A stretch of 64,000 nt of DNA from positions 186,001-250,000 of the forward strand of contig NZ_SCNG01000006.1 of assembly GCF_005503555.1 (NCBI RefSeq), written 5' to 3'. The position numbers and the translations under genes were made by a program. Of this stretch, positions 42,008 through 64,000 are shown piece by piece. The notes beneath the pieces were generated by a model, which was given only the letters and a program-made list of their open reading frames with translations, was not told the DNA's origin and made no database searches. Source of the stretch: Rudaea sp. 3F27F6. GTDB taxonomy: Bacteria; Pseudomonadota; Gammaproteobacteria; Xanthomonadales; Rhodanobacteraceae. Numbering within the stretch: position 1 is the stretch's first letter; every line of letters starts with the position of its first letter.

Positions 42008-43006
42008 TCAGATCGCGCAGCTCAACACGCGCCCTTCGCGCCAGGATCGCGTTGCGAGTTCGGCCAGTTCGAGCGCCCTGATGCCGTCGTTCAAGCTCGG
42101 CGTAGGCTGTGATCTGCCGGCCAGCACCTCGGCGAAATGCGCCATCTCGATCGCATAGGCGCGGCGATAGCGTTCGAGAAAGAACGGCTCCGGCACGTCG
42201 GCGCGGACCGCATCGGCGAGCGACGCCGTCACCTCGGTCGGACGATGATTGCCCGCCTGCAGCATGCCGGCGCTGCCGAGCACCTCGATGCGCTGGTCGT
42301 AACCGTAGGCCGCATGCCGCGACGTGTTGATCGTGCAGAGCCGGCCGCTGCGCGAGCGCAACGTCACCGCGGCGGTGTCGAGATCGCCCGCCGCACGCGC
42401 GCCGTCGCTCAGGCAGGCGCCGGTGGCGTAAATCTCGACGATTTCGTCGGCGACGAGCCAACGGCAGACGTCGAAGTCGTGGATCAGCATGTCCTTGAAC
42501 ACGCCACCCGACTGCTTGAGATAGTCGAGCGGCGGCGGTCCTGGATCGCGGCTCGTCAAGACCACGACTTCGGGCGCGCCGATCTCGCCCACGTCGAGGC
42601 GGCGTTTCAGCGCGGCAAAGGTCGGATCGAAGCGCCGCTGGAAACCGATCATGCACGGCACGCCCGCGCTGGCCACGGCTTCGGCACAAGCCTGCGCGCC
42701 GTCGAGATCCGAAGCCACCGGCTTCTCGCAAAAGATCGCTTTGCCCGCGCGCGCCGCGCGCGAAATCAGCTCGGCGTGCGTCGCCGTGCTCGCCGCGATC
42801 ACCACCGCGGCAACGGTCGGATCGGCCAAAGCCTGCTCGACGTCCGCGGCACCGGCGCCGTGCGCCGCGGCCAATTCGGCAGCCGCGGCTGGATTCACAT
42901 CGACGACATAACGCAGCCGCAGCCCGGCCTGCGCCGAAAGATTGCCCGCATGAATGCGGCCGATTCGGCCCGCGCCGAACAAGGCGATTTCAGTCATGAC
43001 CTTCAC
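42008..43006 (-). CDS. iolG: Inositol 2-dehydrogenase (Gfo/Idh/MocA family)
   Basis: NAD-dependent oxidation of myo-inositol to scyllo-inosose, the first step of inositol catabolism. The protein has 332 residues. The Rossmann motif IALFGAGRIGRIHAGNL is typical of IolG. The family EKP motif is FCEKPVASDL, and the catalytic Lys/His region is GGVFKDMLIHDFDVCRWL (Asp and His). It starts at GTG 43006, overlapping the stop of the RpiR-type regulator (GTGA); the ATG at 42997 is the alternative. Family members also act on other sugars, but the iolC-D-B neighbourhood supports inositol. Confidence 0.9.
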   Translation of the reverse strand: MKVMTEIALFGAGRIGRIHAGNLSAQAGLRLRYVVDVNPAAAAELAAAHGAGAADVEQALADPTVAAVVIAASTATHAELISRAARAGKAIFCEKPVASDLDGAQACAEAVASAGVPCMIGFQRRFDPTFAALKRRLDVGEIGAPEVVVLTSRDPGPPPLDYLKQSGGVFKDMLIHDFDVCRWLVADEIVEIYATGACLSDGARAAGDLDTAAVTLRSRSGRLCTINTSRHAAYGYDQRIEVLGSAGMLQAGNHRPTEVTASLADAVRADVPEPFFLERYRRAYAIEMAHFAEVLAGRSQPTPSLNDGIRALELAELATRSWREGRVLSCAI

Positions 43007-43869
43007 GCATCAAAATCACCGCTGTGGGCCGCCTCGTTCGGCTTCAATTCGAGGCGATACGCCAGCGCCACGAACAAGGCCTGACACAGACAGATCGTGC
43101 TGGTCAGCGCGCGGAACGCGAACACGCTGCCCTCGTCGACCTTGAGCAATACATTGGCATGCGCGGCGAGCGGTCCCAGATCGGACTCGCTGATCGCAAT
43201 CACCTTGGCCTTGCGCTGGCGCGCGAGACGCGTGCAGAACAGCGTCTCCTTGCCGTAAGGCGGGAAACTGATCGCGATCAGCGCATCGCCCTTGCCGATG
43301 CTGTGAATCTGCTCGCGGTGCATGCCGCCGAGTCCGTCGACCAGGTGCACACGTTTCTGCGTATGGCCGAGCGCATAGGCGATGTAGCTCGCGATCGCGA
43401 ACGAGCGCCGCACCGCGACGATATAGATGTGCTCGGCCGACGCGAGCACATCGACCGCGGCGTGGAAACGCGCTGGATCGAAACGCTCCACCAGTTCGTC
43501 GAGGCCGACGCGGCAGGCGTCGATGAAACTGCGTGCGATCTGAGTCTCGTCGAGTTTTTCCGGCCGCTCGGCGATGACGCGGCGGATACGGTGTTGATAA
43601 CTGCCGGACGGTTCGGTGCGCTCGCGAAACGCGTCGCGGAACACGGCCTGCATCTCGCTGAAGCCGGTGTAGCCGAAACGCTGGGCGAAACGTACGACGG
43701 CCGAAGGATGCACGTTGGAACCTTCGGCGATGTCATTGACCTTCTGCAGCATGATGCTCGACCGATGCTGCTCCAGATAGCGCGCGACCCCTTGCAGTTG
43801 GCGCGGCAGCGACTCGAACTCGTCGGCGACGCGCTGCATGAACTGATCCACGGCATTGCTGACGGCCAA
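43003..43869 (-). CDS. iolR: RpiR/MurR family regulator of the inositol genes (IolR-like)
   Basis: A 288-residue regulator with an N-terminal HTH_6 domain (VARYLEQHRSSIMLQKVNDIAEGSNVHPSAVVRFAQRFGYTGFSEMQ) and a C-terminal SIS domain (about 124-264) that should bind a phosphorylated inositol intermediate. The start is a TTG at 43869, seven bases after GAGGAG. It is cotranscribed with iolG and divergent from iolC. RpiR-type IolR of rhizobia binds GGAA-N6-TTCC (recalled), and that motif occurs 88 bp upstream of this start. It is the likely repressor of all three operators described below. Confidence 0.88.
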   Translation of the reverse strand: MAVSNAVDQFMQRVADEFESLPRQLQGVARYLEQHRSSIMLQKVNDIAEGSNVHPSAVVRFAQRFGYTGFSEMQAVFRDAFRERTEPSGSYQHRIRRVIAERPEKLDETQIARSFIDACRVGLDELVERFDPARFHAAVDVLASAEHIYIVAVRRSFAIASYIAYALGHTQKRVHLVDGLGGMHREQIHSIGKGDALIAISFPPYGKETLFCTRLARQRKAKVIAISESDLGPLAAHANVLLKVDEGSVFAFRALTSTICLCQALFVALAYRLELKPNEAAHSGDFDA

Positions 43870-43946: not shown

Positions 43947-43994
43947 ATATGGAATAAAAATTCCATATTTCTATTTAATGCAATACGAATTGCA
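43947..43994 (+). promoter_or_regulatory. Twin operator in the iolR/iolC intergenic region
   Basis: Site 1 has arms ATATGGAAT and ATTCCATAT around AAAA (43947-43968, centre 43957.5). Site 2 has arms TGCAAT and ATTGCA around ACGA (43979-43994, centre 43986.5). The centres are 29 bp apart. Site 1 fits GGAA-N6-TTCC, recalled as the binding motif of rhizobial RpiR-type IolR. The same pair, with the same spacing, precedes the ABC-transporter operon and the TonB receptor. Confidence 0.85.
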
Positions 43995-44018
43995 AAGACT
44001 GCGAACAGGCCCTATTCT
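43990..44018 (+). promoter_or_regulatory. Candidate iolC promoter
   Basis: TTGCAA (43990-43995, inside operator site 2) and TATTCT (44013-44018) are separated by 17 bp. A repressor on site 2 would cover the -35 element. Confidence 0.65.
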
Positions 44019-44059: not shown

Positions 44060-46108
44060 ATGACAGATCGTATCTCCGCCGCCGTCGCGCGGCCCCTCGA
44101 CGCCATCTTCCTCGGGCGCGTCGCCGTTGACCTCTATGCGCAGCAGATCGGTGCTCGCCTCGAAGACGCGACGAGCTTCGCCCGCTATCTCGGCGGCTCC
44201 TCGGGCAATGCCGCATTCGGCAGCGCACGCCTCGGCCTCAAATCGTCGATGCTGAGCCGCGTCGGCAACGACCAGATGGGTCGTTTCCTCGTCGAAACGC
44301 TCGCGCGCGAAGGCTGCGATACATCGCAGTTGCACGTCGATCCCGATCGCCTGACCGCCTTCGTCCTGCTCGGTATCAAGGATCGCGACACGTTCCCGTT
44401 GCTGTTCCACCGCGAGAACTGCGCCGATATGGCGTTGTCGACCGACGACATCGTCGAGGCGCACATCGCCTCGGCGCGTGCGCTCGCGATCACCGGCACG
44501 CATCTGTCCACACCGGGCACGCTCGCCGCCTGCCTCAAGGCGCTGGATCTCGCGCGCAAGCACGGTCTGCGTCGCGTCCTCGACATCGACTACCGCCCGG
44601 TGCTCTGGGGCCTCGCGCCGCGCAGCGACGGCGCGACGCGCTTCGTCGCCAATGCGGCCGTGACCGACCATCTGCGCGACGTGCTGGCCCGGTTCGACCT
44701 GATCGTCGGCACCGAGGAAGAGTTCCGCATTGCCGGCGGCGCCGACGATTTGATCGACGCGCTGCGCAACGTCCGCGCCGCGAGCGACGCACTGCTCGTC
44801 ATCAAACGCGGCGCGCTCGGCTGCAATGCAATCGATGCGGAGATCCCGGCGCGGATCGAAGAGGCACCGCTCGTCGCCGCGCCGAAAGTCGACGTACTCA
44901 ACGTGCTCGGTGCCGGCGACGCCTTTATGGCCGGCTTTCTTTACGGCTGGCTGCGCGACCAGCCGATCGAAACCTGCTGCGCCTATGCGAACGCCTGCGG
45001 CGCGATCGTCGTTTCCCGCCACGGCTGCGCGCCGGCGATGCCGAGCCGAGCCGAACTCGAATATTTTCTGCGCCAAACCGGAAAGATCGAAGGCGATGCG
45101 CGTGAACTTCGTTTCACGCCGAATGCGCAAAAAGCGCGCGCCTATGACATCGCCACCGATGCCGAACTCGCGCATCTGCATCGCGTCAGCGTGGCGCGCC
45201 CGCACTGGGAGGATTTGCACGTATTCGCCTTCGACCATCGCAGCGCATTGGAGGAAACCGCGCGGCGCCACGGCGCCGACGCCGCGGCCCGCCTGCCCGT
45301 GCTGAAAAACCTGCTGCTGCGCGCCACCGAGCAGACCGAGGCGGCCTTGGACCTCGCCGGCCATATCGGCGTGCTGATCGACGACCGCCACGGCCAGGAC
45401 GCGCTCAACGCCGCAAGCGGGCGCCGCTGGTGGATCGGCCGTCCAGCCGAACTGCCCGACACGACGCCGCTCGCCTTCGAGCACGGCGCCTCGATCGGCA
45501 CGCAGCTCGTCACCTGGCCGCAGGAACATACGATCAAATGTCTTATCGTCTTCGATCCGGACGACGCGACTCTGCGCGCCGAGCAAGAACGGCAGTTGCG
45601 CACGCTCTACGCCGCCGCTTGCGCGAGCGGCCATGAACTTCTCATCGAAGTCATCGCACCGGCGCATGCTCCGGCGGCGCAGCGCGGCGATCTGGTCCTG
45701 CGCGCGATCGAACGCATCTACGCGGCCGGCATCAAACCCGAATGGTGGAAGCTCGCGCCACTCGCCGCCGCCGACTGGCCGGCACTCGACGCTCTCATTA
45801 CACATAGCGATCCGTGGTGCCGCGGCGTGCTCCTGCTCGGCGCCGACGCACCCTACCCCGAACTCGCCGCCGGCTTTGCCGCCGCGGCCGGCAGCGCGAC
45901 CTGCCGCGGCTTCGCCGTGGGCCGCAGCGTGTTCGCCGAACCGGCGCGCGCATGGTTCGCCGGCGAGATCGACGACGACGCACTCGTCGCGCGCGTGCAC
46001 GCGAACCAGTGCGAACTCGCTGCGCTTTGGCGCGCGGCGCGAGACAATGTCGCGGGTCCTGCACCGGTGGAAACAAAAAGAAATTTTGGCCACGGATTAC
46101 ACGGATGA
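44060..46108 (+). CDS. iolC: IolC 5-dehydro-2-deoxygluconokinase fused to DUF2090 aldolase-like domain
   Basis: A 682-residue two-domain protein. Residues of about 12-335 are a PfkB kinase that phosphorylates 5-dehydro-2-deoxygluconate; they show the GGSSGNAA substrate motif and GAGD with catalytic Asp287. After a short linker, about 360-665 is a DUF2090 domain (FAFDHRSALEETARRHG, IKCLIVFDPDD, IKPEWWKL), reported as the aldolase that splits the phosphorylated product, replacing IolJ. The last residues and the stop codon come from an inserted hairpin repeat. It is the first gene of iolC-D-B, behind the twin operator. Confidence 0.92.
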   Translation: MTDRISAAVARPLDAIFLGRVAVDLYAQQIGARLEDATSFARYLGGSSGNAAFGSARLGLKSSMLSRVGNDQMGRFLVETLAREGCDTSQLHVDPDRLTAFVLLGIKDRDTFPLLFHRENCADMALSTDDIVEAHIASARALAITGTHLSTPGTLAACLKALDLARKHGLRRVLDIDYRPVLWGLAPRSDGATRFVANAAVTDHLRDVLARFDLIVGTEEEFRIAGGADDLIDALRNVRAASDALLVIKRGALGCNAIDAEIPARIEEAPLVAAPKVDVLNVLGAGDAFMAGFLYGWLRDQPIETCCAYANACGAIVVSRHGCAPAMPSRAELEYFLRQTGKIEGDARELRFTPNAQKARAYDIATDAELAHLHRVSVARPHWEDLHVFAFDHRSALEETARRHGADAAARLPVLKNLLLRATEQTEAALDLAGHIGVLIDDRHGQDALNAASGRRWWIGRPAELPDTTPLAFEHGASIGTQLVTWPQEHTIKCLIVFDPDDATLRAEQERQLRTLYAAACASGHELLIEVIAPAHAPAAQRGDLVLRAIERIYAAGIKPEWWKLAPLAAADWPALDALITHSDPWCRGVLLLGADAPYPELAAGFAAAAGSATCRGFAVGRSVFAEPARAWFAGEIDDDALVARVHANQCELAALWRAARDNVAGPAPVETKRNFGHGLHG

Positions 46109-50974: not shown

Positions 50975-51010
50975 GGTCGTGTTGCCTTGGTTGTTGAATA
51001 GGTCTTTGTT

Positions 51011-51090
51011 CGTCATCCCAGCGAAAGCTGGGATCCAGCTCTGCCGTCAATCTGGGGAAGAGCTGGATTCCAGCGTTCGCTGGAATGACG
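51011..51090. repeat. Inverted pair of CGTCATCCC-type intergenic repeats
   Basis: The 32-bp arms begin CGTCATCCCAGCGAAAGCTG (51011-51042) and end GCTGGAATGACG (51059-51090), matching at 29 of 32 positions as inverted copies. They form a long hairpin between the ABC ATPase gene and the IolE-like gene, where it could lower downstream expression. Confidence 0.88.
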
Positions 51091-51095
51091 GTGCT

Positions 51096-52193
51096 CTAGT
51101 TTTGGCCGTCGATTCTGTTTCCTTGTGCATCGAACAGCGTGACTCGCGCCGCATCGAATGCGAACACCGCGTCGCCGTCGATGCGTACCGGCGCATCGCC
51201 GAACACGCGCGCAGTGATGCGCACGCCATCGTCAAGGCAAAGCGTGACGAGGCTTTCCGGCCCCATCGCCTCGTTGGCGAACAACTTGCCGCGCAGGCGA
51301 TTGCCGTCGCCCGCAGCGATGCGCAGATGTTCGGGGCGCACCCCGACGGTGATGCGGTCACCGCGTTCAAGTGCGAGATCGAGCGCCGGCCAGCTCGCGA
51401 TCGGCGCCATCTCCAGTCCGCCGGCGCGCAACGCGATGCCAGCTTGCGTGCGCGTCGCCTGCGCGGCGATCAGGTTCATCGGCGGATCGCCGACGAAACC
51501 GGCGACGAAGGTCGTTGCCGGTCGGCGATAAATCTCCAGCGGCGGCGCGTACTGCACGATATCGCCCGCGCACATCACTGCGATACGCGTGGACAAGGCC
51601 ATCGCTTCGGCCTGGTCGTGGGTCACGTAAACCGCGGTCATGCCGCGGCTGCGCTGCAGGTGATAGAGGAATGCCCTCGCCTCCACGCGCATGCGCGCGT
51701 CGAGATTCGACAGCGGCTCGTCGAACAAAAACGCATCGGCCGGATGGACCAGCGCGCGCGCAAGCGAAGTCCGCTGCTGCTGGCCGCCCGAAATCTGCGC
51801 CGGCAGGCGGTCGAGCAGATCGGCGATATGCAGCACGTCGGCGACCTCGCGCGCCTGCGCGCGGCGTGCGTCCGCCGCCACGCCGCGCACCTTGAGCGGA
51901 TAGGCGATGTTGTCGGCAATCGTCATGTGCGGATACAGGGCATAGTCCTGGAACACCATGCCGATATTGCGATCCTTCGGCTGCGCATGAGTCACGTCGC
52001 GGCCGCCGATGCGGATGCCGCCGCGCGTCGGCTGTTCGAGCCCGGCGATCATGCGCAAGGTCGTCGTCTTGCCGCAGCCGGAAGGGCCGAGCAGGCAGAC
52101 GAATTCACCATCGCCGATGGCAAGATCGATCTCGCGGATCGTGTCGATCGCCCCGTAGCTCTTGCCGATCTTGTCGAGTTGGATCGAAGCCAT
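51096..52193 (-). CDS. Sugar ABC transporter ATP-binding protein (UgpC/MalK type)
   Basis: A 365-residue ATPase. The start is the ATG at 52193 (MASIQLDKIGKSYGAID); the frame stays open into the permease gene but is not coding there. Walker A is GPSGCGKT (36-43), the ABC signature is ISGGQQQR (134-141) and Walker B is AFLFDEP (154-160). A C-terminal TOBE/MalK regulatory domain of about 110 residues carries VGVRPEHLRIA. It energises the two permeases encoded just upstream. The substrate is most likely myo-inositol or a derivative, from context. Confidence 0.93.
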   Translation of the reverse strand: MASIQLDKIGKSYGAIDTIREIDLAIGDGEFVCLLGPSGCGKTTTLRMIAGLEQPTRGGIRIGGRDVTHAQPKDRNIGMVFQDYALYPHMTIADNIAYPLKVRGVAADARRAQAREVADVLHIADLLDRLPAQISGGQQQRTSLARALVHPADAFLFDEPLSNLDARMRVEARAFLYHLQRSRGMTAVYVTHDQAEAMALSTRIAVMCAGDIVQYAPPLEIYRRPATTFVAGFVGDPPMNLIAAQATRTQAGIALRAGGLEMAPIASWPALDLALERGDRITVGVRPEHLRIAAGDGNRLRGKLFANEAMGPESLVTLCLDDGVRITARVFGDAPVRIDGDAVFAFDAARVTLFDAQGNRIDGQN

Positions 52194-52201
52194 GAATGCC
52201 C

Positions 52202-53026
52202 TTAGGACTTGATCCCGCCGAAGAAGCGGAATCCGTATTTGCGGTTGACGTACCAGTACAGCGCGATCACCGGCAGCGAATACAGTACCGAGTACGCCGC
52301 GAGCAGCGGCACGATCGGCGTGCCTGCCTGCGAGTAGAACGAATAGATTTCGACCGACGCGGGCATGCGCTGCTCGCTGCGCAGGAGCACGAACGGAATC
52401 AGAAATCCGCCCCAGACCTGGACGAAGGCCCAGACCGCCGCAATGGTGACGCCCGGACGCAGCACCGGCACGACCACATCGACAAAAGCGCGCCATGGCG
52501 AGGCGCCGGCGACGAGCGCCGATTCCTCGTAGCCGCGCGGAATGCTCGCGATGAAATCGCGCAGGATGAACATCGCCGTCGGCAACAAGCCACCGGTGAA
52601 GACGAGGATCACCGCGACTTGGGTGTCGATCAGGCCGAGCGCATTGACGATCAGGAAGATCGGCACCATCGCCGCCGAGCCGGAAACGACCGAGGAAAAC
52701 AGCAGCAGCACGTATTCGATCACGCGCTTGCCGCGCAATGCGGTGCGCGCGAGCGCATAGGCCGCGAGTGTCGCCGTCGTCGCCACGAGCAACACCGTGC
52801 CGAACGCCTGCAGTAACGAATTCAGCAGTGCGCCGACCGCGGCGCGGTTGGCGAACACGCGCGCGAAGTTCGTCAGCGTCGGCGGCTTCGGCATGGCAAG
52901 GTCGAGATCGGCCTGCGCATTGAACGGCGCGAACACGAACCAGATCAGTGGCAGCGCGAACGCAGCGCCAAGCAGTGCGGCGCCGACACTGAAAGCCATG
53001 CGCGAAAACAGGGTGCGGCGATTCAT
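52202..53026 (-). CDS. Sugar ABC transporter permease (MalG type)
   Basis: A 274-residue inner-membrane permease with six hydrophobic segments and the EAA loop EESALVAGASPWRAFVDVVVPVLRPG that contacts the ATPase. It overlaps the end of the MalF-type gene by 4 nt (ATGT around 53023-53026) and lies 8 bp before the ATPase gene. Confidence 0.93.
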   Translation of the reverse strand: MNRRTLFSRMAFSVGAALLGAAFALPLIWFVFAPFNAQADLDLAMPKPPTLTNFARVFANRAAVGALLNSLLQAFGTVLLVATTATLAAYALARTALRGKRVIEYVLLLFSSVVSGSAAMVPIFLIVNALGLIDTQVAVILVFTGGLLPTAMFILRDFIASIPRGYEESALVAGASPWRAFVDVVVPVLRPGVTIAAVWAFVQVWGGFLIPFVLLRSEQRMPASVEIYSFYSQAGTPIVPLLAAYSVLYSLPVIALYWYVNRKYGFRFFGGIKS

Positions 53027-53946
53027 GTGCCCTTCCCCTTAGCACGCAGACCGCGCTGGGCGAGGCGCAGATAGAACAGCGAAAACGCGAGGTTGATCAG
53101 CATGACGATCACGCCGATCGCCGCGCCATTGCCGAACTCGAAGCTCTTGAACGCGATGCGATACGTGTAGATCGGCAGAATGTCGGTCTCGAACGACGGC
53201 CCGCCTGCGGTCAACAGGAATGGCGTAAACACGTTGAACGTCCACATCGTGATCAGGATCAGATCGGTGACGATATGGCCGCGGATCAGCGGCAGCACGA
53301 TGTCGCGGAATTTCTGCCACGAACTCGCGCCCGCGACATCGGCGGTTTCGAGGTAGCTCGGCGGAATCGATTGCAGCGCGGCATCGAACAGCATCATTGA
53401 GAACGCCGCGCCGCGCCAGGCGTTGAACAGGCAGATGGTCAGAAACGGGTGCTCGATCAGGAAATCGGCGGCCGGAAAATTCAGGCCGTGCAGCAACTGA
53501 TTGAGCGTGCCTGCATCGCGGTCGAGATAGGCGAACCAGGCGAAGCCGACGACCACGTCGGGCAGTATCCACGCCAGCATCACGATGCCCTGCAGCAGCG
53601 ATTTCGCCCGCGGCGACAGCTCGCGCGAAATCCACGCAAGGACGAGGCCGAGCAGCACTTGGCCGAGTAAAGCCGAGAACACGACGAACTGGATCGTCAA
53701 CCACAGCGAGGGACCGAAGCCACCCTGACTCCAAAACGTCGCCGGATCGAACAGGTCGAGATAATTCTTCAGACCGACGAACTGCGGATGCAGCGCGTTC
53801 ACGCCGAGCAGGCTGCGATTGGTGAAGCTGACCGCGATGATCCAGAAGAACGGGAAGACGACAAACAGGCCGATCAGCAGGCCCGCCGGAGTCATAAAGG
53901 CAATGCCGGTGCGCGAGGACACATTAGCGCCGCGCTGAGAAATCAC
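53023..53946 (-). CDS. Sugar ABC transporter permease (MalF type)
   Basis: A 307-residue inner-membrane permease with six hydrophobic segments and the EAA loop ETADVAGASSWQKFRDIVLPLIRG. The start is set at the GTG at 53946, because AAGGGG lies eight bases upstream; the ATG at 53979 has no ribosome site. It pairs with the MalG-type permease next to it. A GC-rich hairpin separates it from the binding-protein gene. Confidence 0.9.
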   Translation of the reverse strand: MISQRGANVSSRTGIAFMTPAGLLIGLFVVFPFFWIIAVSFTNRSLLGVNALHPQFVGLKNYLDLFDPATFWSQGGFGPSLWLTIQFVVFSALLGQVLLGLVLAWISRELSPRAKSLLQGIVMLAWILPDVVVGFAWFAYLDRDAGTLNQLLHGLNFPAADFLIEHPFLTICLFNAWRGAAFSMMLFDAALQSIPPSYLETADVAGASSWQKFRDIVLPLIRGHIVTDLILITMWTFNVFTPFLLTAGGPSFETDILPIYTYRIAFKSFEFGNGAAIGVIVMLINLAFSLFYLRLAQRGLRAKGKGT

Positions 53947-53984
53947 GACTCGCCCCTTGCACGTTCGGCGCTCGACCATAAAAA

Positions 53985-54110
53985 GCCGTTCGAGCCGAGC
54001 GTAGCGCCGCAGGCGCGAAGCCTGCCCCGGACTTCGATCCGGGGGAGAAGCCGACTACGCCACTTCGACTTCGCCGCTTCGCGGCTATGCACGGTGCGAA
54101 CGGCCTTGCG
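53985..54110. repeat. Hairpin-rich spacer between binding-protein and permease genes
   Basis: A palindrome CCCCGGA / TCCGGGG lies at about 54026-54044, flanked by longer-range complementary GCCGTTCG / CGAACGGC copies. Similar hairpins after malE-like genes protect the upstream mRNA and lower permease expression; the same role is inferred here. Confidence 0.5.
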
Positions 54111-54118
54111 CCCATTGG

Positions 54119-55546
54119 TCACGGTGCCGCACCTCGCAAATCGAACGCGATCGTGCGATCGGTACCGACGATCTGCTTCACCGCGGCCGCGTACTCGCCC
54201 ATCGCCGCGCGTGGCGTGAGTTTCCCGGCAATCACGCTTTCGGTCATGCGTTGAATCTCGGCCGAGACCTTTTCATAGTCGGCGTCGATCGGCCGTATCG
54301 TCGTCAACGGCAGCAGTTCGCGTCCGCTGTCGCGCAGGAACTGCGAGCGCGGCGGCAGCACGTCGTCGCGCACGCAGAGATGCTCGTTGTATTCCTGATA
54401 ATTGCGCAGCGCCGGCGCCGAGTTCATGAAGGCGAGCAAGGACCACGCCTCGCGCGGATGCTTTGAATGCGGATTGAGCACGAAGCTGTTGCCGCCCGAC
54501 ACGCTGACGAAATCCTGCGCGCGCACGCCGCCGCCCGGCGCACGCGCCGGCATCTTCGCCCAACCGACCACGGCGTCTCGATCGGCGATCGGGAAATCGC
54601 CTTGCGGATCGATCGCGGTGTAATAGAACCAATTGCTCTCGATCAGGATCGCGCTCTTGCCGCGCTGGAAGTCGGTGAAGCTGCGGTTGCGCCCGCTGAC
54701 CAGGCGCTGCGTGCGCGCTTCGCCGAGTTGCTCGTCGCGATAGACCGTTTTGTAGAAATCGAGTACGCCGAGAATGTTCGCACTGCTCACGATCCAGCGC
54801 CCGGTGTCGTCACGCAGTTCCTCGCCGGTGCCGGCCAGCAGCATCAGATAGCCCTGCATCGTCGTCGCCTCGCCCATCGCAACGCCGGCATTGATCTGCA
54901 GCGGGAAACTCTTCGGATCGAGCGCTTTCAGTTTGCGTGCCGCATCGAGCAGATCGCCCCACGAGCGCGGCTGCCAATGGTCGGCGTCGAGCCCGGCGCG
55001 ACGGAACAGATCGCGCCGATAGAAGATCATGCGCACGTCGGTCTGCTCGGGCACGCCGTAGCGCTTGCCGCGAAAGCGCACGAGTGCCTGCGCGCTGTCC
55101 GGGATATGCGACCAGCCTTCCCACGCATCGGCTTCGGGCCCGGCGGTTTCGGCGAGCGGCTTGAGCAGGCCGGCATCGACGAAACCCGGAATCTGGAAGC
55201 CGTCGAACTCGGCGAGATCGGCGCCCTGCGCGGTGGCGAAGTCGAGCGCGAGCTGCTGCGACATCTGTTCCGCGCTGCCAGCGAATTCGCGCAGGCGCAC
55301 CGCGACGTCACGGCCCTGCGCCCTGGCTGCGGCGACGTATTCGGGAATCACATACTGCTTGAGCCAGCGCGCCTCGGCGCCGTTCACGCCACCCTCGACG
55401 CAGCGGCAGGCGATCGACAGTTCGACCTGGGCCGCCGACGCGTTCGCCGCCAAGGCGATACCGAAGCACCATGCCGCGAGCGCGCACAGACAGCGGCGCA
55501 CTGTCGAGGCGCGCTGCAAGCTGCGGGTGTGATGCGTCGCCGGCAT
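54119..55546 (-). CDS. Sugar ABC transporter substrate-binding protein
   Basis: A 475-residue periplasmic binding protein (family 1 extracellular solute-binding). The start is placed at the ATG at 55546, giving a Sec signal peptide (RRCLCALAAWCFGIALAANASA). The longer frame from 55627 would begin upstream of the candidate promoter. Typical sugar-binding features are GADLAEFDGFQIPGF, the Tyr/Trp-rich ligand cleft ESNWFYYT, and SGGNSFVLNPHSKHPREAW. It is the first gene of the operon binding protein-permease-permease-ATPase-IolE-Gfo, behind the second twin operator. Ligand inferred as an inositol. Confidence 0.9.
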   Translation of the reverse strand: MPATHHTRSLQRASTVRRCLCALAAWCFGIALAANASAAQVELSIACRCVEGGVNGAEARWLKQYVIPEYVAAARAQGRDVAVRLREFAGSAEQMSQQLALDFATAQGADLAEFDGFQIPGFVDAGLLKPLAETAGPEADAWEGWSHIPDSAQALVRFRGKRYGVPEQTDVRMIFYRRDLFRRAGLDADHWQPRSWGDLLDAARKLKALDPKSFPLQINAGVAMGEATTMQGYLMLLAGTGEELRDDTGRWIVSSANILGVLDFYKTVYRDEQLGEARTQRLVSGRNRSFTDFQRGKSAILIESNWFYYTAIDPQGDFPIADRDAVVGWAKMPARAPGGGVRAQDFVSVSGGNSFVLNPHSKHPREAWSLLAFMNSAPALRNYQEYNEHLCVRDDVLPPRSQFLRDSGRELLPLTTIRPIDADYEKVSAEIQRMTESVIAGKLTPRAAMGEYAAAVKQIVGTDRTIAFDLRGAAP

Positions 55547-55586: not shown

Positions 55587-55615
55587 AGCTTAAGCATGCC
55601 CGAAGGTTTTCGCAA
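55587..55615 (-). promoter_or_regulatory. Candidate promoter of the ABC-transporter operon
   Basis: On the minus strand, TTGCGA (55615-55610) and TAAGCT (55592-55587) are separated by 17 bp. The -35 overlaps the downstream operator palindrome exactly as at iolC. The -10 hexamer is weak. Confidence 0.55.
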
Positions 55616-55657
55616 TTTGCATTGCAAAATTGAATTTTTTGGAATACAAATTCCAAA
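55612..55657 (-). promoter_or_regulatory. Twin operator upstream of the ABC-transporter operon
   Basis: Arms GCAAT and ATTGC around TTGC lie at 55612-55625 (centre 55618.5). Arms TTTGGAAT and ATTCCAAA around ACAA lie at 55638-55657 (centre 55647.5). The spacing is 29 bp. Relative to the binding-protein start, the GCAAT site is about 72 bp upstream, nearly the same as at iolC (73 bp). Confidence 0.85.
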
Positions 55658-55850: not shown

Positions 55851-57797
55851 ATGAAATCCACCATTCACCTCGTCTTCAAAACGCATCTCGATATCGGCTT
55901 CACCCAGCTTGCCGAACGCGTGCGACAGCAGTATCACAACGTCTTTATCCCCGCCGCGCTCGATACGGGCGAGCATTTCCTGCATGAAGACGCGGCGCAG
56001 CGCCTATTCGTCTGGACCACGGGCGCCTGGTTGATCTGGGATCATCTAGAAACGCAGCCGCCCGAACGCGTGCGCCGCCTCGAACGCGCGATCGACCGCG
56101 GCATCATTCGCTGGCATGCGCTGCCGTTCACCACCCACACCGAATTGATGTCGCCCGCGCTGTTTCGCGCCGGGCTCTCCTATGCGCAGGATCTCGATCG
56201 CCGCTTCGACGTGAAGACCGTCGCTGCGAAGATGACCGACGTACCGGGCCACACACTCGGTATCGTGCCGCTGCTGGCGCGCGCCGGAATCAAATTCCTG
56301 CACATCGGCGTGAACTCCGCGTCGACGCCGCCCGACGTGCCCGACCTGTTCCGCTGGCGCGCGCCGGGCGGCGAAGAAATCCTCGTCACCTATCAGAAAA
56401 GCTACGGCTCGACGCATTTCGTCGACGGCAGCGACGTGGCCCTGAGCTTCGCCCATACCAACGACAACGTCGGCCCGCAGAGCGTCGGCCAGGCGATCGA
56501 CTGCCACCGCGACCTGCGCGACGAATTTCCCGATGCCGAGATCCGTGCTTCGACGCTCGACGCCTTCGCCGAAAGCCTGTGGCCGCTGCGCGAGCGCTTT
56601 CCGTTGATCGAAAAAGAGATCGGCGATTCGTGGATCCACGGCGTCGGTACCGATCCGGTCAAAGTTTCTCGCTTCCTTGCCCTGCAACGGCTCTACGATC
56701 GCTTCGACGAAGAAGGCCTGAGCGCGCAGCGCAGCGCGTTCGGCCGCCGCCTCTGCCTCGTGCCCGAACATACCTGGGGCGTCGACATCAAGACCTTCCT
56801 GCGCGACGAAACGCATTGGGATCGTGCCGATTTCGAGCGCGCTCGGCACGACGATCCACGCTTCGCATTTTGCGAGTCGTCGTGGAACGAGCAGCGCGCC
56901 TATCTCGATACGGCAGTCGAAGCGCTCGATGCCGACGACCGCGCGCTGGCACAGGCAGCACTCACTGAAGCTGCCGAACACAACGACGAAACACCTTCAC
57001 CGGCACCGGTTGAAATAGCGGGAGAAATGGAGCTCGGCGGCTGGCGTGTCGCAATCGAGCCAATATCGGGCGCCGTGATGAGTCTCACCTCATCAAACGG
57101 CCTCCGCGTCGAGGGCGACGATCTGATCCGCTACGTCTACGAAAGCTACGACGCGAACGACGTCGCCGAGCATATGCGCACCTACCTCACCGATCGCGTG
57201 CGCTGGGCCCTGCTCGATCACGGCAAGCCCGGACTCGAACGCGCGCAGACCGCGCAGTCGGCGCGACGCGGTACGTGCCTGCTCGGCGTCGAATCAAACT
57301 CGCAACGTGCTGTGCTGCACCTGCAGACTCCATCCGCCGCGTGCGAAACGCTCGGTGCACCGAAACGCGTCACACTCACGTTGCGTCCGATCGACGCGAC
57401 GCGCCTGCGTCTCGAACTCGTGCTGCACGAGAAGCCGTCCAACCGCATGCCTGAGGCGAGCTTTCTCACGTTTATGCCGAGCGGCGCCCGCGACTGGCAT
57501 CTGCATAAACTTGGCCTATGGCTGCCGGCTGGCGATGTCGTGAGTAACGGCGGCGGTGCTCTGCATGCCGCTGCCGGCATACGTGCGCGCCTCGACTCCG
57601 GCGCAACGTTGCAGATCACGCCTCTCGATTCACCGCTGTTCGCGCCGGCCGATGCCGCCTTTATGTCGTTCGCGCCTGTTGCGCCCGATTTTTCTTCGGG
57701 CATCCGCTGCAATCTGCACAACAACAAGTGGGGCACCAACTTTCCGATGTGGTGTGAGGGGACGTTGCGCTTTCGGTTTGATCTCGCGCTGTCTTGA
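55851..57797 (+). CDS. DUF5054 (GH38-like) domain protein
   Basis: A 648-residue protein starting MKSTIHLVFKTHLDIGFTQLAERVRQQY. The KTHLDIGFT motif is the DUF5054 equivalent of the His-x-Asp metal site in GH38 alpha-mannosidases. Further blocks are HALPFTTHTELMSPALFRAGLSYA, KMTDVPGHTLGIVPLLARAGIKFLHIGVN and EHTWGVDIKTFL. No signal peptide is seen, so it is cytoplasmic. By position between inositol transport and phosphoinositide lysis genes it may remove a sugar from imported glycosyl-inositols; this is inference. It is transcribed divergently from the ABC operon. Confidence 0.82.
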   Translation: MKSTIHLVFKTHLDIGFTQLAERVRQQYHNVFIPAALDTGEHFLHEDAAQRLFVWTTGAWLIWDHLETQPPERVRRLERAIDRGIIRWHALPFTTHTELMSPALFRAGLSYAQDLDRRFDVKTVAAKMTDVPGHTLGIVPLLARAGIKFLHIGVNSASTPPDVPDLFRWRAPGGEEILVTYQKSYGSTHFVDGSDVALSFAHTNDNVGPQSVGQAIDCHRDLRDEFPDAEIRASTLDAFAESLWPLRERFPLIEKEIGDSWIHGVGTDPVKVSRFLALQRLYDRFDEEGLSAQRSAFGRRLCLVPEHTWGVDIKTFLRDETHWDRADFERARHDDPRFAFCESSWNEQRAYLDTAVEALDADDRALAQAALTEAAEHNDETPSPAPVEIAGEMELGGWRVAIEPISGAVMSLTSSNGLRVEGDDLIRYVYESYDANDVAEHMRTYLTDRVRWALLDHGKPGLERAQTAQSARRGTCLLGVESNSQRAVLHLQTPSAACETLGAPKRVTLTLRPIDATRLRLELVLHEKPSNRMPEASFLTFMPSGARDWHLHKLGLWLPAGDVVSNGGGALHAAAGIRARLDSGATLQITPLDSPLFAPADAAFMSFAPVAPDFSSGIRCNLHNNKWGTNFPMWCEGTLRFRFDLALS

Positions 57798-58431: not shown

Positions 58432-58784
58432 CTTGGCTCTTAAACCAACAAAAACAAAAGCTAAAGTCACTGGATTCCCGCTAAGAGCACGCGGGAATGA
58501 CGAACAAAGAGCAATGCGGGCAAAGAAGAGCTGGATGACCAGCCCTACGGCTGTTGAAAGCCCTGCTTCCGCAGGAATGACGAGCAAAAAGAGCAAAGCC
58601 GCGCGCGAGGGATCACGCCACACTACTGACCACACGAAGAACGGCCACCGCGCAACGAACGCACGTGGAACAACCGCAAAAAACAACACGCAACCTGACA
58701 TTCCCACGACATAAAACCCAGCTAGATTCCCGCCCAGCGCAACGCTGCCGAGCGGCAGCGTTGGGGTGGAGTCACGCGCGCGAA

Positions 58785-58830
58785 TAGAATTTTTGTTCTA
58801 CTTGAAACATTGTTGCAATGCAAATTGCAA
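58785..58830 (+). promoter_or_regulatory. Twin operator upstream of the TonB-dependent receptor
   Basis: Site 1 has arms TAGAAT and GTTCTA around TTTT (58785-58800, centre 58792.5), a degenerate GGAAT-type site. Site 2 has arms TTGCAAT and ATTGCAA around GCAA (58813-58830, centre 58821.5). The spacing is again exactly 29 bp, with the GCAAT site nearer the gene. Confidence 0.8.
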
Positions 58831-58853
58831 TAGAGTTTCAGGGTACCTATGCT
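58825..58853 (+). promoter_or_regulatory. Candidate promoter of the TonB-receptor/PI-PLC/PHP operon
   Basis: TTGCAA (58825-58830, inside operator site 2) and TATGCT (58848-58853) are separated by 17 bp. An in-frame ATG at 58849 lies within this -10, so translation must begin downstream, at 58933. Confidence 0.65.
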
Positions 58854-58932: not shown

Positions 58933-61512
58933 ATGTGCCAATACCGAATCCTGACCTTGTCCAGCGTGCTTGCGCTGTCGTGCTTTCTCGGCGCGGCCGG
59001 CCACGCCGCTGAAACCGCGGCCGCGCCGGCCGATCCGAATCCCGCGGCGGCGGACGCGCAGGCTGCGCCGTCCGATGCACCGGCCATCACCACGGCCGAT
59101 GCGAAGAAGACGCAGAGCATGGAAGCGGTCGTCGTCACCGGGCGTGCCGGCGTGGACGCGCGCACCAAGGAGCAGACCAGCTATTCGATCACGACGATCA
59201 GCGAGGAGCGTCTGCGCCTGCAGGCCCCGACCAGCGTGACCGAGTCGCTCAAGTCAGTGCCGGGATTCTGGGTTGAGGCGACCGGCGGCGAAGCGAGCGG
59301 CAACGTGCGTGCGCGCGGCATTCCGGTCGACGGTTTCGGCTCGATCAACCTGCTCGAAGACGGCCTGCCGATCCAGCATGATCCGTCGCTCGGCTATCTC
59401 AACGGTGACCAGGCGTTCCGTCTCGACGAAACGATCGACGGCATTGAAGTCGTGCGCGGCGGTCCGTCGTCGCTGTTCTACTCGAACGCGCCGGCCGGCG
59501 CGGTCAACTACATTCCACGCCAGGTCGGCAACGAGGCGTCGGGCCTGTTCAAGTACACGGTCGGCGACTACGGCCTCAACCGCGGCGATTTCTGGTACGG
59601 CACGCCGTTCGGCGACGGCTGGAAATTCTCGATCGGTGGTTTCTATCGCAAGGACGACGGCATCCGCGATCCGGGCTACACCGCGGACCGCGGCGGCCAA
59701 TTGCGCGCGACGATCTCGAAAGAGTGGGATACCGGCAAGTTCAGCTTCGATCTGAAACGCTTGGTCGATACGGTGTACTTCGACCTCGGCATCCCGATGC
59801 GCACGTATCCCGACGGCAAGATTAAAGCGGTGCCGGGCTTCGACGGCAACTACGGCACCGTCGCCGGCCCCGAGACGAACCACATTACGCTGACCGGCCC
59901 GAACGGCAAGCCCTACTCCTATACCAACGACACCGGCACCCAGGTGCATCGCACTCAGGCGACGTGGAAGTTCGAGCAGGAATTCGGCGACAACTGGAAA
60001 TTCAGCGACAGCCTGCGCATGAGCGATACCAACACCGTGCGCAACGGCATGTTCCCGAACCAGCTCAACTCGGGCCAGGGCATCATCAACACCGCGCTCG
60101 CTGCCAAACCGAGCCCGCTATCGCTGTTCCCCGGTGCTTCGGGACTGCGCCTGCGCTACGTCGATTCGCCGTCGACCTATTTCGACCTCGCCAACCAGAA
60201 CGGCAACGGCCTCGCGATCATCGGCGGCCTGCGCAGCGTGACGTCGCCGACCGACGAGATCCTCAACGACGCGCGCGTCTCGACCAAGTTCGACTTCGGC
60301 GGCCAGCACGACTTCACCCTCGGCTACTACCTCGCCCACGTCAATTTGAAGTTCGACCGCTATTCCTCGACCGTGCTGCTCGACGTGCAGAACAACGCGC
60401 GCCTGCTCGACCTGGTTGCGGTCGACGCGAACGGCAACGTGCTCGGCAGCGTCACCCAGAACGGCATCTATCAGAACGGCTACGAGTGGGCCAACGCCGG
60501 CGGCAGCCAGACCACGAACGCGGTGTACTTCAGCGATGAGTGGCAAGTCAGCGACCGCCTGCGCATCGACGGCGGCGCGCGCTACGAGCGCGTCGAGTTC
60601 AACGGATCGAACGAGGTCAAGCAGAAGGTCAACTACGGTGGCGGCTTCCCGAATTCGCAGGTGCTCACCGGCACCGGCCAGTTCCTGCGCTTCGATCGCG
60701 ACTTCAACAAGGTCGGCTGGACGCTCGGTGCGAACTATCAGTTCGACGAGCGTTCCGGCGCGTTCGCGCGCTGGACCAAGGCCTTCCGTCTGCCGAACGT
60801 GAGTTCGTACATCGACAATCCGTTCGCCACGCCGATCATCCAGACCATGGACCTCGGCGAAATCGGCTACAAGTTCGCCAATCGCTGGCTCGAGTTGTAC
60901 GCGACGGGCTTCTACACCAAGTACAACAACGTCGGCTTCTCCACGGTGGTGTTCGACCCGAACAATCCGAACGTGCCGGGACCGAACCAGACCATCTACG
61001 CCAACACCAAGACCTACGGCCTCGAACTCGAAGGCGGCATCTATCCGGTCGACTGGTTCGACATCACCTTCAACGCGACGATCGAAGATCCGAAGTACAA
61101 AAACTTCCTCGGGTACAACAACGTCAACGGCAAGCCGGTCGCGTTCAACTACAGCGACAATCAATTGATCCGCGTACCGAAGAACAGCATCCGCATCGTG
61201 CCGGGCCTGAACCTGCTCGACGGCAAGCTGCGCCTGCAGGTCAGCGCCGAGTACGAAGGCGCGCGCTACGTCGATGCGGCCAATACGGTGCGCCTGCCCT
61301 CGTACAAGACCTACAACGGCAGCGCGAGCTACCAGGTCGACGACCGCTGGACCGTGTTCGGCTACGTCGACAATATCAACAACTCGCAGGGCCTCACCGA
61401 AGGCAATCCGCGCGCGGGCGAACTCGCCAACAACAATCCGCTGGCGAATACCTTCCTCGCACGTCCGCTGCTCGGCCGCACTTATCGCGTGTCGGTGATG
61501 TACAAGTTCTGA
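58933..61512 (+). CDS. TonB-dependent receptor of the inositol island
   Basis: An 859-residue outer-membrane active transporter. The start is the ATG at 58933, seven bases after GGAGAG, with a signal peptide (LTLSSVLALSCFLGAAGHAAE). A Pro/Ala-rich linker precedes a TonB-box-like MEAVVVTG. The plug domain (SVTESLKSVPGFWVEATGGEASGNVRARGIPVDGFGSINLLEDGLPI) follows, then a 22-strand-type barrel ending in the aromatic C-terminus YRVSVMYKF. Operon position ahead of PI-PLC- and PHP-type genes and the shared operator suggest that it imports an inositol phosphate or glycosyl-inositol. Confidence 0.93.
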   Translation: MCQYRILTLSSVLALSCFLGAAGHAAETAAAPADPNPAAADAQAAPSDAPAITTADAKKTQSMEAVVVTGRAGVDARTKEQTSYSITTISEERLRLQAPTSVTESLKSVPGFWVEATGGEASGNVRARGIPVDGFGSINLLEDGLPIQHDPSLGYLNGDQAFRLDETIDGIEVVRGGPSSLFYSNAPAGAVNYIPRQVGNEASGLFKYTVGDYGLNRGDFWYGTPFGDGWKFSIGGFYRKDDGIRDPGYTADRGGQLRATISKEWDTGKFSFDLKRLVDTVYFDLGIPMRTYPDGKIKAVPGFDGNYGTVAGPETNHITLTGPNGKPYSYTNDTGTQVHRTQATWKFEQEFGDNWKFSDSLRMSDTNTVRNGMFPNQLNSGQGIINTALAAKPSPLSLFPGASGLRLRYVDSPSTYFDLANQNGNGLAIIGGLRSVTSPTDEILNDARVSTKFDFGGQHDFTLGYYLAHVNLKFDRYSSTVLLDVQNNARLLDLVAVDANGNVLGSVTQNGIYQNGYEWANAGGSQTTNAVYFSDEWQVSDRLRIDGGARYERVEFNGSNEVKQKVNYGGGFPNSQVLTGTGQFLRFDRDFNKVGWTLGANYQFDERSGAFARWTKAFRLPNVSSYIDNPFATPIIQTMDLGEIGYKFANRWLELYATGFYTKYNNVGFSTVVFDPNNPNVPGPNQTIYANTKTYGLELEGGIYPVDWFDITFNATIEDPKYKNFLGYNNVNGKPVAFNYSDNQLIRVPKNSIRIVPGLNLLDGKLRLQVSAEYEGARYVDAANTVRLPSYKTYNGSASYQVDDRWTVFGYVDNINNSQGLTEGNPRAGELANNNPLANTFLARPLLGRTYRVSVMYKF

Positions 61513-61619: not shown

Positions 61620-62912
61620 GTGATCGACTGTTCTCTCGCTTCTCACGATACCCGGACCGGCAGCCCGGTTCTTCCGGCGATCAGCCATCGCAGCTCATCC
61701 TCGCGTCTGCGCTCAAGGCTACCTGTTCTCTCCGTCGCCAACGCTGTCCTCGCCGTGCTCTGCTTGAGCGCTGCGTTGTTCTCACACTCGGCTTGCGCCG
61801 CCGACAACGGCTGCGATCTCTCCGCAGCCAACGCGGCCAAGGCCGGCGGCGAAGCCTGCACACGCGCGTGGATGGACCACAATCTGCGCCTCAACGATGT
61901 CCAGGTGATCGGCACCCACAATAGCTATAAGCTGCATATGCCGCCCGAGGAATTCGCCGCGCACAAGGCGCATGACGCGCACGGTGCCGACGGTCTCGAC
62001 TACGGCCATCGTCCGCTCCGCGAACAGCTCGATCTTGGCATCCGTCAGCTCGAACTCGACGTTTGGGACGATCCCGAAGGCGGCCGCTGGCTGCATCCGC
62101 CCGGCGCGCTGCGCCAGGGCTACGCGACGCCGCCGTGGCCGCCCGCGCAGGCCGCGCTGATGGCCAAGCCCGGCTTCAAGGTCATGCACCTCGCCGATAT
62201 CGATTTCCGCTCGAACTGCGTCACTTTCGTCGCCTGCCTGAGCGCGATCCGCACCTGGTCGGCTGCATATCCGCGCCATCTGCCGATCATGATTCTGATC
62301 AACGCGAAGGACGGCAAACTCGGGCCCGGCTCCGTGCCGGCACTGAAGTTCGACACGGCCGCGTTCGACCGGCTCGACGCGGAGATCCGCAGCGTGTTCA
62401 AACCGGCGCAACTGATCACGCCCGACGAGGTGCAGGGCAAGTATCCGACCTTGCGCGAAGCCGTGCACGCGAACAACTGGCCGAGCCTCGGCCGCGCACG
62501 CGGACGCGTGCTGTTCGTGCTCGACGAGAGCGACGACAAGGTCGCGCTGTATCGCGGCACGCGCGCTTCGCTCGAAGGCCGCGCGATGTTCCCGACGATC
62601 AAGGAAGATTCGCCTGCGGCCGGCTATATCACGCTCAACGATCCGCTTGCTGATACGGCACGCATCCACGCCGACGTCGCCGCGGGCCTGCTCGTACGCA
62701 CGCGCGCCGATGCCGACACCGTCGAGGCGCGCAGCGGTGACACCAAGCGCCGAGACACCGCGTTCGCGAGCGGCGCACAATACATATCGACCGACTATTT
62801 CGAGCCCGACTCGCGCTTCGGCTCTTACCGCGTGCGCTTCGACGGCGGCGCGATTGCGCGCTGCAATCCCGTGCGCGCGGCGGAGAAATGCGCGGGCATT
62901 CCGATCGAGTGA
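61620..62912 (+). CDS. Secreted Ca2+-dependent phosphoinositide phospholipase C-like protein
   Basis: A 430-residue exported protein that appears to belong to the Ca2+-dependent PI-PLC family (Pfam PF16670 type, recalled). The GTG start at 61620 gives an N-terminal segment with signal sequence (LPVLSVANAVLAVLCLSAALFSHSACA). Active-site elements are IGTHNSYK (His100 and metal-ligand Asn101), QLELDVWDDP (Glu145, Asp147) and KVMHLADIDF (His190). It should cleave phosphatidylinositol or related headgroups outside the cytoplasm, releasing inositol phosphate. It overlaps the next gene by 3-4 nt (GTGA). Confidence 0.87.
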   Translation: MIDCSLASHDTRTGSPVLPAISHRSSSSRLRSRLPVLSVANAVLAVLCLSAALFSHSACAADNGCDLSAANAAKAGGEACTRAWMDHNLRLNDVQVIGTHNSYKLHMPPEEFAAHKAHDAHGADGLDYGHRPLREQLDLGIRQLELDVWDDPEGGRWLHPPGALRQGYATPPWPPAQAALMAKPGFKVMHLADIDFRSNCVTFVACLSAIRTWSAAYPRHLPIMILINAKDGKLGPGSVPALKFDTAAFDRLDAEIRSVFKPAQLITPDEVQGKYPTLREAVHANNWPSLGRARGRVLFVLDESDDKVALYRGTRASLEGRAMFPTIKEDSPAAGYITLNDPLADTARIHADVAAGLLVRTRADADTVEARSGDTKRRDTAFASGAQYISTDYFEPDSRFGSYRVRFDGGAIARCNPVRAAEKCAGIPIE

Positions 62913-64000
62913 ACGACAAAGTGAAATTCTATACTTTCCTGCTGTTTGCCCTGTTTGCGTCCGTCGTCCACGCCGAGGGCGGCGACAAGCCCGATCTAAC
63001 CCTGACCGGCAAGCTCAGCGGCAAGGACAACCAGACCTACAAACTCGTGCCGTTCGACGTGCCGGCCGGCGTCGATCGCATCACGGTCGATTTCGCCTAT
63101 ACCGGCCGCGAGGAAAAAACCACGATCGATCTCGGCCTGCTCGGCCCCGGCGGTTTCAAGAACAACGCGTTCCGCGGCTGGAGCGGCGGCAACAAGAGCC
63201 GCTACACCGTGTCCGCAACCGACGCAACGCCATCCTACGTGCCCGGCCCGATCACGCCGGGCCGTTGGAACCTGCTGCTTGGCATTCCGAACATCCGCGA
63301 AAACGCGCATGCCGAATTCACCGCGAAAGTCTACTTTTCCAGAAACGGAAAAATTCCCGACCTGCTCGATGCACCGCTGCGCGCCGAATCGGGCTGGTAC
63401 CGCGGCGATCTGCACATGCACGGCGCGCACAGCGACGGCTCGTGCACGCCGCAGAGCGGCAAGGGCAAGGTCCCCTGCCCGCTGTTCCTCAGCGCGCAGA
63501 CTGCCGCTGAACGCGGCCTCGACTTCATTGCGTTGTCCGACCACAACACGGTGACGCAGGCGAATGCGGTGCGCGAGCTGCAGCCGTATTTCGATCGCCT
63601 GTTGCTGCTTCCGGGCCGCGAGCTGACCACGTTCACCGGACACGCCAATCTGCTAGGCACCTGGGTGCCGCTCGATTTTCGCGTCGGCAGCGCCGAGGTG
63701 CCCGACTGGAACGCCCTGCTGCGCAATGCGGCAAAGCTCGGCGGTTTCGTTTCGATCAACCACCCGATCCGTCTCTCGGGCGAAGTCTGCATGGGCTGCG
63801 GCTGGACCGCGGAACCCGAAGTCGACATGCGCCTCGTCCAGGGCATCGAAGTCGTCAACGGCAACGACGCCGACACGCTGATCTCAGGTATTCCGTTCTG
63901 GCAGGCACGTCTCGACAAAGGCTTCCGCCTCACCGCGGTCGGCGGCAGCGACGATCACAACGCCAAACAATGGGGCGAAAGCCGCGGCCATGTCGGCATC
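62909..64000 (+). CDS. Secreted PHP-domain metallohydrolase, CehA/McbA-like (right end cut)
   Basis: The frame is open from the GTG at 62909 to the window edge (364 residues seen). A signal peptide (VKFYTFLLFALFASVVHA) is followed by a beta-rich N-terminal domain (about 25-145) and a PHP domain starting GDLHMHGAHSDGS (His169, His171), ALSDHNT (Asp211, His212), GRELTTFTGHANLLG (Glu238, His245) and INHPIR. These are metal ligands of phosphoesterases. Overlap with the PI-PLC stop shows coupled translation. It may remove phosphate from the PI-PLC product before uptake; this is inference. Confidence 0.85.
   Translation, partial: MNDKVKFYTFLLFALFASVVHAEGGDKPDLTLTGKLSGKDNQTYKLVPFDVPAGVDRITVDFAYTGREEKTTIDLGLLGPGGFKNNAFRGWSGGNKSRYTVSATDATPSYVPGPITPGRWNLLLGIPNIRENAHAEFTAKVYFSRNGKIPDLLDAPLRAESGWYRGDLHMHGAHSDGSCTPQSGKGKVPCPLFLSAQTAAERGLDFIALSDHNTVTQANAVRELQPYFDRLLLLPGRELTTFTGHANLLGTWVPLDFRVGSAEVPDWNALLRNAAKLGGFVSINHPIRLSGEVCMGCGWTAEPEVDMRLVQGIEVVNGNDADTLISGIPFWQARLDKGFRLTAVGGSDDHNAKQWGESRGHVGI

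Follow-up and report, generated by a model that had tools for sequence, protein, structure and literature searches.

A predicted TonB-dependent receptor gene near the right end of the window (the whole stretch of DNA analyzed here, 64,000 nucleotides) is preceded by a pair of palindromes that also occurs in front of inositol catabolic genes. This raises the question of whether the receptor and the phosphoinositide-lysis genes that follow it belong to an inositol regulon, and of how a paired operator of this kind would be read and by what.

Architecture of the proposed twin operator

Three such twins, each composed of two 18-bp palindromes, are located at 43.96, 55.63, and 58.81 kb (twins A, B, and C). 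The sites and the promoters predicted to overlap them are as follows.

43949..43966, plus strand: site A1, ATGGAATAAAAATTCCAT, centre 43957.5
43978..43995, plus strand: site A2, ATGCAATACGAATTGCAA, centre 43986.5
43990-44018, plus strand: promoter A, TTGCAA-17-TATTCT, predicted to drive the iolC operon
55639..55656, minus strand: site B1, TTGGAAT-N4-ATTCCAA, centre 55647.5
55610..55627, minus strand: site B2, TTGCAATGCAAATTGCGA, centre 55618.5
55615 down to 55587, minus strand: promoter B, TTGCGA-17-TAAGCT, predicted to drive the ABC-transporter operon
58784..58801, plus strand: site C1, AT-AGAAT-TTTT-GTTCT-AC, a degenerate GGAAT-N4-ATTCC palindrome, centre 58792.5
58813..58830, plus strand: site C2, TTGCAATGCAAATTGCAA, centre 58821.5, identical in the related genomes G001, G003, and G005
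58825..58853, plus strand: predicted sigma-70 promoter C, TTGCAA-17-TATGCT, with the inner half of site C2 as its -35, conserved

The general form of the element is WWGGAAT-N4-ATTCCWW for site 1 (degenerate at C) and TTGCAAT-N4-ATTGCAA for site 2, with a centre-to-centre spacing of exactly 29 bp in all three twins and a constant order in which site 2 is gene-proximal. The GGAA-N6-TTCC motif is exact at A and B and degenerate (AGAA-N6-TTCT) at C, where site 1 is the weakest of the three copies with three mismatches (AGAAT...GTTCT). At each promoter the -35 hexamer coincides with the inner half of site 2 and is followed by a 17-bp spacer to the -10. An earlier note on this DNA had placed the two centres of twin C at 58792.5 (TAGAAT/GTTCTA, degenerate) and 58821.5, 29 bp apart, which proved correct to the base. 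It had also described TTGCAA-17-TATGCT as overlapping site 2 in the manner of the other two promoters; this was confirmed, with TTGCGA as the variant at B.

Rarity of the twin and of site 2

The twin pattern comprises 22 fixed bases, of which the strict search allows at most three mismatches. Over the whole genome (5,704,709 bases) it matched only at A, B, and C, and the reversed pattern gave no match, which bears out the claim that identical geometry in three of three promoters is unlikely to have arisen by chance. When all centre distances between -60 and +60 whose absolute value is 16 or more were tried in the window, twins with at most three mismatches appeared at 29 bp only; at four mismatches, distances of 22, 34, and 46 bp also appear.

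At no more than one mismatch, every copy of site 2 in the same genome belongs to one of the three twins, apart from a single match within a predicted ORF, and on these matches a role for it as the site of a global regulator was rejected for this genome. At up to two mismatches, site 2 was present in 71 of 233 genomes of the family, partly as lone matches, and matches to the reversed control were scattered.

Genes adjoining the twins

The genes predicted next to the three twins are as follows.

42008..43006, minus strand: IolG, inositol 2-dehydrogenase (TIGR04380, 398 bits, cut-off 355)
43003..43869, minus strand: RpiR-type regulator, predicted IolR, with HTH_6 and SIS domains, divergent from iolC across twin A
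44060..46108, plus strand: IolC kinase-DUF2090 aldolase fusion (NF047869, 913 bits, cut-off 600)
50108-51016: IolE-like TIM barrel (TIGR04379, 137.4 of 290 bits), below cut-off and not assigned as the myo-inosose-2 dehydratase IolE
54119..55546, minus strand: SBP of a MalK-type ABC transporter, start estimated
53023-53979 and 52202-53026, minus strand: ABC permeases, downstream of the SBP gene
51096-52163, minus strand: ATPase of the transporter, following the permeases
58933..61512, plus strand: TonB-dependent receptor (Plug and barrel, Pfam), likely true start ATG 58933
61620..62912, plus strand: PI-PLC-C1, a predicted Ca2+-dependent phosphoinositide phospholipase C (Pfam PF16670, 401.5 bits)
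62888..64000, plus strand: CehA/McbA-family metallohydrolase (NF038032, 185 bits, cut-off 80), continuing beyond the window

The regulator gene adjoins inositol catabolic genes, of which IolG and the IolC-DUF2090 fusion score above their cut-offs; further members of the cluster are a TPP enzyme of the IolD type and a protein matching KduI/IolB. The assignment of the regulator to its type is based on Pfam (HTH_6 35.4 bits, cut-off 28.3; SIS 71.7 bits, cut-off 25); its NCBIfam matches lay far under cut-off (MurR, 55 of 408), with no IolR model among them. The IolR of Caulobacter crescentus is of the RpiR type, and that of Sinorhizobium meliloti is said, in work by Kohler from 2011, to be an RpiR-like regulator. 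No regulator other than the RpiR protein was identified among the scanned ORFs of the window's iol cluster, and no extra regulator among five additional proteins scanned from the G116 cluster.

The transporter of the regulon (49032-55546, minus strand) is of the SBP_bac_1/MalK type in this genus, as against a Peripla_BP_4-type sugar ABC transporter in G116, and it may import an inositol in glycosylated or phosphorylated form. Divergent from it across twin B is the gene of a DUF5054 protein (55851-57797), whose similarity to GH38 mannosidases is weak and below cut-off. A large protein of collagen-like Gly-X-Y repeats (38469-41768) neighbours the inositol cluster.

For the receptor gene, the ATG listed at 58849 falls within the -10 box, and the in-frame start conserved across relatives is that at 58933. 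The PF16670 match of the phospholipase is full-length (profile positions 1-329 of 329). The metallohydrolase had no Pfam match; its type is presumably the one also labelled PHP. An AraC-type regulator, a beta-helix protein, and a second TonB-dependent receptor are encoded 3' of the operon (L118:1433-7748, about 64433-70748 in window numbering).

Co-occurrence of twin and regulator

The strict twin was found in 33 of the 233 family genomes, with reversed controls all at zero, and a regulator match (E at most 1e-40) in 44, these and all later counts being non-independent as the genomes are related. Five of the 44 regulator matches, which are 34-36% identical and come without a strict twin, were set apart, leaving 39 carriers of an orthologue. 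A twin is present in all 39, in 32 by the strict search and in seven by a looser or spacing-tolerant search that was applied mainly where the strict one had failed, and hence unevenly across genomes. The latter twins have a spacing of 29 bp in G083, G089, G098, G181, and G204, of 28 bp in G183, and of 30 bp in G130.

Among the 189 genomes without the regulator, to which the spacing-tolerant search did not extend, a single strict match was obtained, in G029, and it has the appearance of a chance hit. The looser 29-bp pattern covered part of the family and gave one match among the regulator-less genomes covered, in G038, which is likewise chance-like. Run over 398 genomes of the order, the looser pattern matched in 34, mostly the same family genomes, and its reversed control in three (G169, G258, and G307). 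The matches in G450 and G460, which belong to another family, look genuine, G450 having an iol cluster and a regulator 67% identical; those in G038, G320, G344, G427, G452, and G469 look like chance.

Conservation of the third twin

Exactly three strict twins are present in each of the genomes G000, G001, G003, and G005, with the third always 5' of the genes for the TonB receptor, PI-PLC, and hydrolase. When these four regions are aligned, hardly any change is seen in site 2, in the promoter, or in the A/T core of site 1, whereas the flanks diverge. In G003 at least 69 kb separate the operon with the third twin from the iol genes, the site being at 92,177 of contig C72 (161,252 bases). In G005 this operon and the iol genes are on different contigs, with the operon less than 1 kb from the end of its own, so that linkage is not readable there.

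A second twin, with a spacing of 30 bp, is found in G204 and G221 5' of an operon for a GH92 mannosidase, TonB receptor, PI-PLC, and hydrolase, and in both genomes this operon adjoins the iol genes. With these twins found further upstream, the idea that a twin at the receptor is restricted to the genus of this strain was dropped. The geometry, whose loss in relatives keeping the same genes the earlier note had named as a refuting outcome, is retained in all four regulator-bearing genomes of the genus and, in its 30-bp form, in two other genera.

The receptor is far from confined to genomes with the twin. It was present in 69 of the 233 family genomes, and no twin was seen within the 650 bp examined at 28 other receptor loci. 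Regulator orthologue and receptor are both present in 28 genomes. When stretches of about 12 kb were compared, a twin was found at the receptor operon in six of six regulator carriers with PI-PLC there vs. none of 20 without it, a contrast that does not amount to 26 independent events because the genomes are related, and that leaves out G118 (short flanks, with neither PI-PLC nor twin in them) and G181 (whose contig ends inside the receptor). On the receptor tree, from which G119 was excluded as its receptor is in two pieces, the state of having twin plus PI-PLC changed at least two times. At five PI-PLC loci lacking a regulator orthologue (G100, G103, G104, G106, and G228), no twin was found near the receptor.

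The proposal that the inositol regulon extends to the receptor and phosphoinositide-lysis genes is supported by this conservation. It does not carry over to the receptor in general, which is widespread and has no twin in any of the 20 regulator carriers without PI-PLC. Many genomes have the receptor but neither the regulator nor a twin, so the ancestral role of the receptor would not have been specific to inositol.

A predicted Pho-box-like promoter upstream of the receptor gene

The PhoB box has the consensus CTGTCAT-N4-CTGTCAT. A comparable element lies upstream of twin C.

58695..58728, plus strand: predicted Pho-box-like promoter, CTGACAT-N4-ACGACAT-N10-TAGATT, upstream of the receptor gene

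In the form CTGACAT-N7-ACAY-N9-11-TAGATT it precedes C2 by 118 bp (G000 and G001) or 129 bp (G003 and G005). Its 11-bp direct repeat, the -10 about 10 bp downstream, and the position 5' of the receptor gene are like those of Pho regulon promoters. Unlike in the latter, the heptamers are degenerate against this consensus, with four mismatches in G000, three in G003, and five in G001, while the best match of G005 lies elsewhere. Comparable elements are located upstream of both pstS genes in the genome of this strain.

In other genera, 13 of 28 receptor promoters contain a pair of TGTCA-type repeats, spaced by 21-23 bp and followed after about 10 bp by a -10; shuffled sequences gave a mean of 0 over 200 rounds, an optimistic test as the pattern was picked after viewing the sequences. 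A simple PhoB box was rejected for these relatives, the two-repeat pattern being present in only 13 of the 28 and its spacing being 21-23 bp, not 11 bp; the pattern was retained as a lead. A palindrome of the TTTAGACGTCTAAA type was also seen 5' of the Pho-like repeats in several other genera (L092, L110, L115, L116, and others), and TTTAGACGTC, on either strand, was found in eight of the 28 receptor upstream regions. The promoter sequence suggests that the same operon may also take a phosphate input. We infer that the module would have begun as a phosphate scavenger, to which inositol control was added where PI-PLC is present.

Proposed mechanism and alternatives

On the strength of its architecture, of how rare it is in the genome, of its association with the regulator, and of its retention at the receptor operon, we consider it likely that the element combines a promoter of an inositol regulon with a two-dimer operator, with the RpiR-type regulator repressing from both sites and the three operons co-induced. 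Without inositol or a derivative of it, the predicted IolR (43003-43869) would occupy both sites as neighbouring dimers, which probably form a single tetramer. At site 2, the bound dimer would cover the -35 box and exclude RNA polymerase, and site 1, 29 bp upstream, would contribute affinity and specificity. Two points count against this model: C1 is the weakest of the site 1 copies, and a distance of 29 bp, at 10.5 bp per turn, amounts to 2.76 turns of the helix and would place the dimers on different sides of the DNA. Binding of an inositol-pathway intermediate by the SIS domain would free the operator DNA, and release would lead to joint induction of the iol enzymes, the ABC transporter, and the receptor/PI-PLC/hydrolase operon. 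Because the twin also precedes the receptor and PI-PLC genes and is kept there in some relatives, the scavenging tools are probably co-expressed with the inositol-degrading enzymes. From phosphoinositides, PI-PLC is expected to release an inositol phosphate; this would be dephosphorylated, probably with help from the CehA/McbA-type hydrolase, and the iol enzymes would then consume the inositol. The Pho-box-like promoter, 118-129 bp further upstream, would provide a second input to the receptor operon under phosphate starvation.

It is possible, if on balance unlikely, that the twin is read by two proteins, with RpiR recognizing only GGAA-N6-TTCC and a second regulator or DNA-binding factor recognizing TTGCAATGCAAATTGCAA, the two acting jointly at a fixed distance. 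Site 2 is consistently unlike site 1, its centre is conserved and not simply symmetric (TTGCAATGCAARTTGCA in most rows, TTGCACTGCGGGTTGCA in G450), and five genomes that lack the regulator (G091, G094, G142, G158, and G182) have a lone match to site 2 at one mismatch. The G/C difference between the two sites is moreover held in nearly all aligned rows, which one protein would not obviously need. A second regulator would, however, be nearly private to the regulon, as site 2 at up to one mismatch is confined to the twins and one match inside an ORF, and the RpiR gene is the only regulator gene identified among the scanned ORFs of the window's iol cluster, with none in the five G116 proteins. Site B1 of G001 also resembles site 2: on the opposite strand (TTGGAATGCAAATTCCAA) it equals site 2 save for one symmetric G/C swap. 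The near-privacy of site 2 and this resemblance favour one protein acting on both sites and repressing via the -35.

Another reading, which we regard as quite unlikely, treats the operon as essentially a phosphate-starvation module in which twin C is minor or decaying and inositol control has little effect. The Pho-like repeats in 13 of the 28 relatives (a post hoc pattern) and the related element in the four promoters of the genus are in keeping with it, as is the induction by phosphate depletion described for a TonB-linked PI-PLC system of Flavobacterium in the excerpted text of PMC8115612. It is difficult to reconcile with site C2 and its promoter, which are nearly invariant in four species whose flanks diverge, or with the presence of a twin before the PI-PLC operon in another clade.

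We find it improbable that the regulator chiefly activates, with site 1 upstream of the -35 aiding the polymerase. This has been proposed for the pneumococcal NanR, and RpiR proteins are able to activate (PMC12713135, in part); site 1 is also at an activator-like position. Site 2, however, overlaps the -35 in three of three promoters, and deletion of iolR derepresses the iol promoters in Caulobacter, as described in the available portion of PMC2597717. Finally, the degenerate C1 might speak for a chance resemblance or a non-functional promoter duplication, a reading that is extremely hard to credit with only three places in the genome matched, a control of zero, conservation at orthologous loci, and a G003 copy far from the iol genes.

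Going beyond the preferred reading of one repressing regulator, we put forward a broader scheme, speculative and as a whole rather unlikely. The mixed (heterotypic) RpiR twin might be a portable module of fixed geometry, set at least two times in evolution before receptor/PI-PLC operons with phosphate-controlled relatives. The outcome would be a stripping of mannosylated inositol lipids (GPI-type, or fungal or plant inositol-phosphoceramides) gated by phosphorus plus carbon, and a single regulon would unite inositol catabolism with PI-PLC and with mannosidases of the GH92 or GH38-like kind. Such a substrate is hinted at by the DUF5054/GH38-like protein at twin B and by the GH92 gene heading the operons of G204 and G221.

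Significance and comparison with known systems

In the proposed regulon, a single DNA code that can be read from the sequence would connect inositol catabolism with the scavenging of inositol lipids at the outer membrane, and this predicts a substrate class for a TonB receptor family previously without assignment. It would also offer a compact test case of an RpiR protein reading two different palindromes at a fixed spacing, and the Pho-like second promoter suggests one operon serving phosphorus and carbon needs.

Among the closest known systems is the IolR of C. crescentus. According to the portion of PMC2597717 available, the inositol promoters of this organism carry a GGAA-N6-TTCC motif, which matches site 1, and its iolC promoter has two copies; mutating the first raised expression, whereas no effect was measured on mutating the second, which speaks against the model proposed here. 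The two copies do not differ in type and lie 104 and 45 bp upstream of iolC, and this portion describes no TTGCAAT-N4-ATTGCAA partner at 29 bp, no receptor, and no PI-PLC. The NanR of Streptococcus pneumoniae, also of the RpiR family, recognizes a near-palindrome of 18 bp both as a dimer and, in equilibrium with it, as a tetramer able to hold one or two DNAs, as given in the accessible sections of PMC12713135. It differs in pathway, effector, and operator sequence, and is a proposed activator. In the PUSI cluster of Flavobacterium johnsoniae, TonB-linked genes for outer-membrane uptake lie beside Fjoh_4172/4173 and are co-induced with them; in the excerpted PMC8115612, the table labels for these two genes are phosphoinositide PLC and pf16670, on different rows. 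Unlike the present operon, that cluster is of the SusCD type, belongs to Bacteroidetes, and is under phosphate-depletion control, with no inositol operator mentioned in the excerpts.

No TonB receptor tied to IolR was seen in the excerpts of PMC8343143, which covers the terms TonB-dependent, myo-inositol, regulon, and RpiR. The literature searched yielded no description of the mixed twin or of an extension of the regulon to an inositol-lipid scavenging operon. The regulator type and the site 1 half of the operator are known, and the fixed partner site and the extension to receptor and PI-PLC look new.
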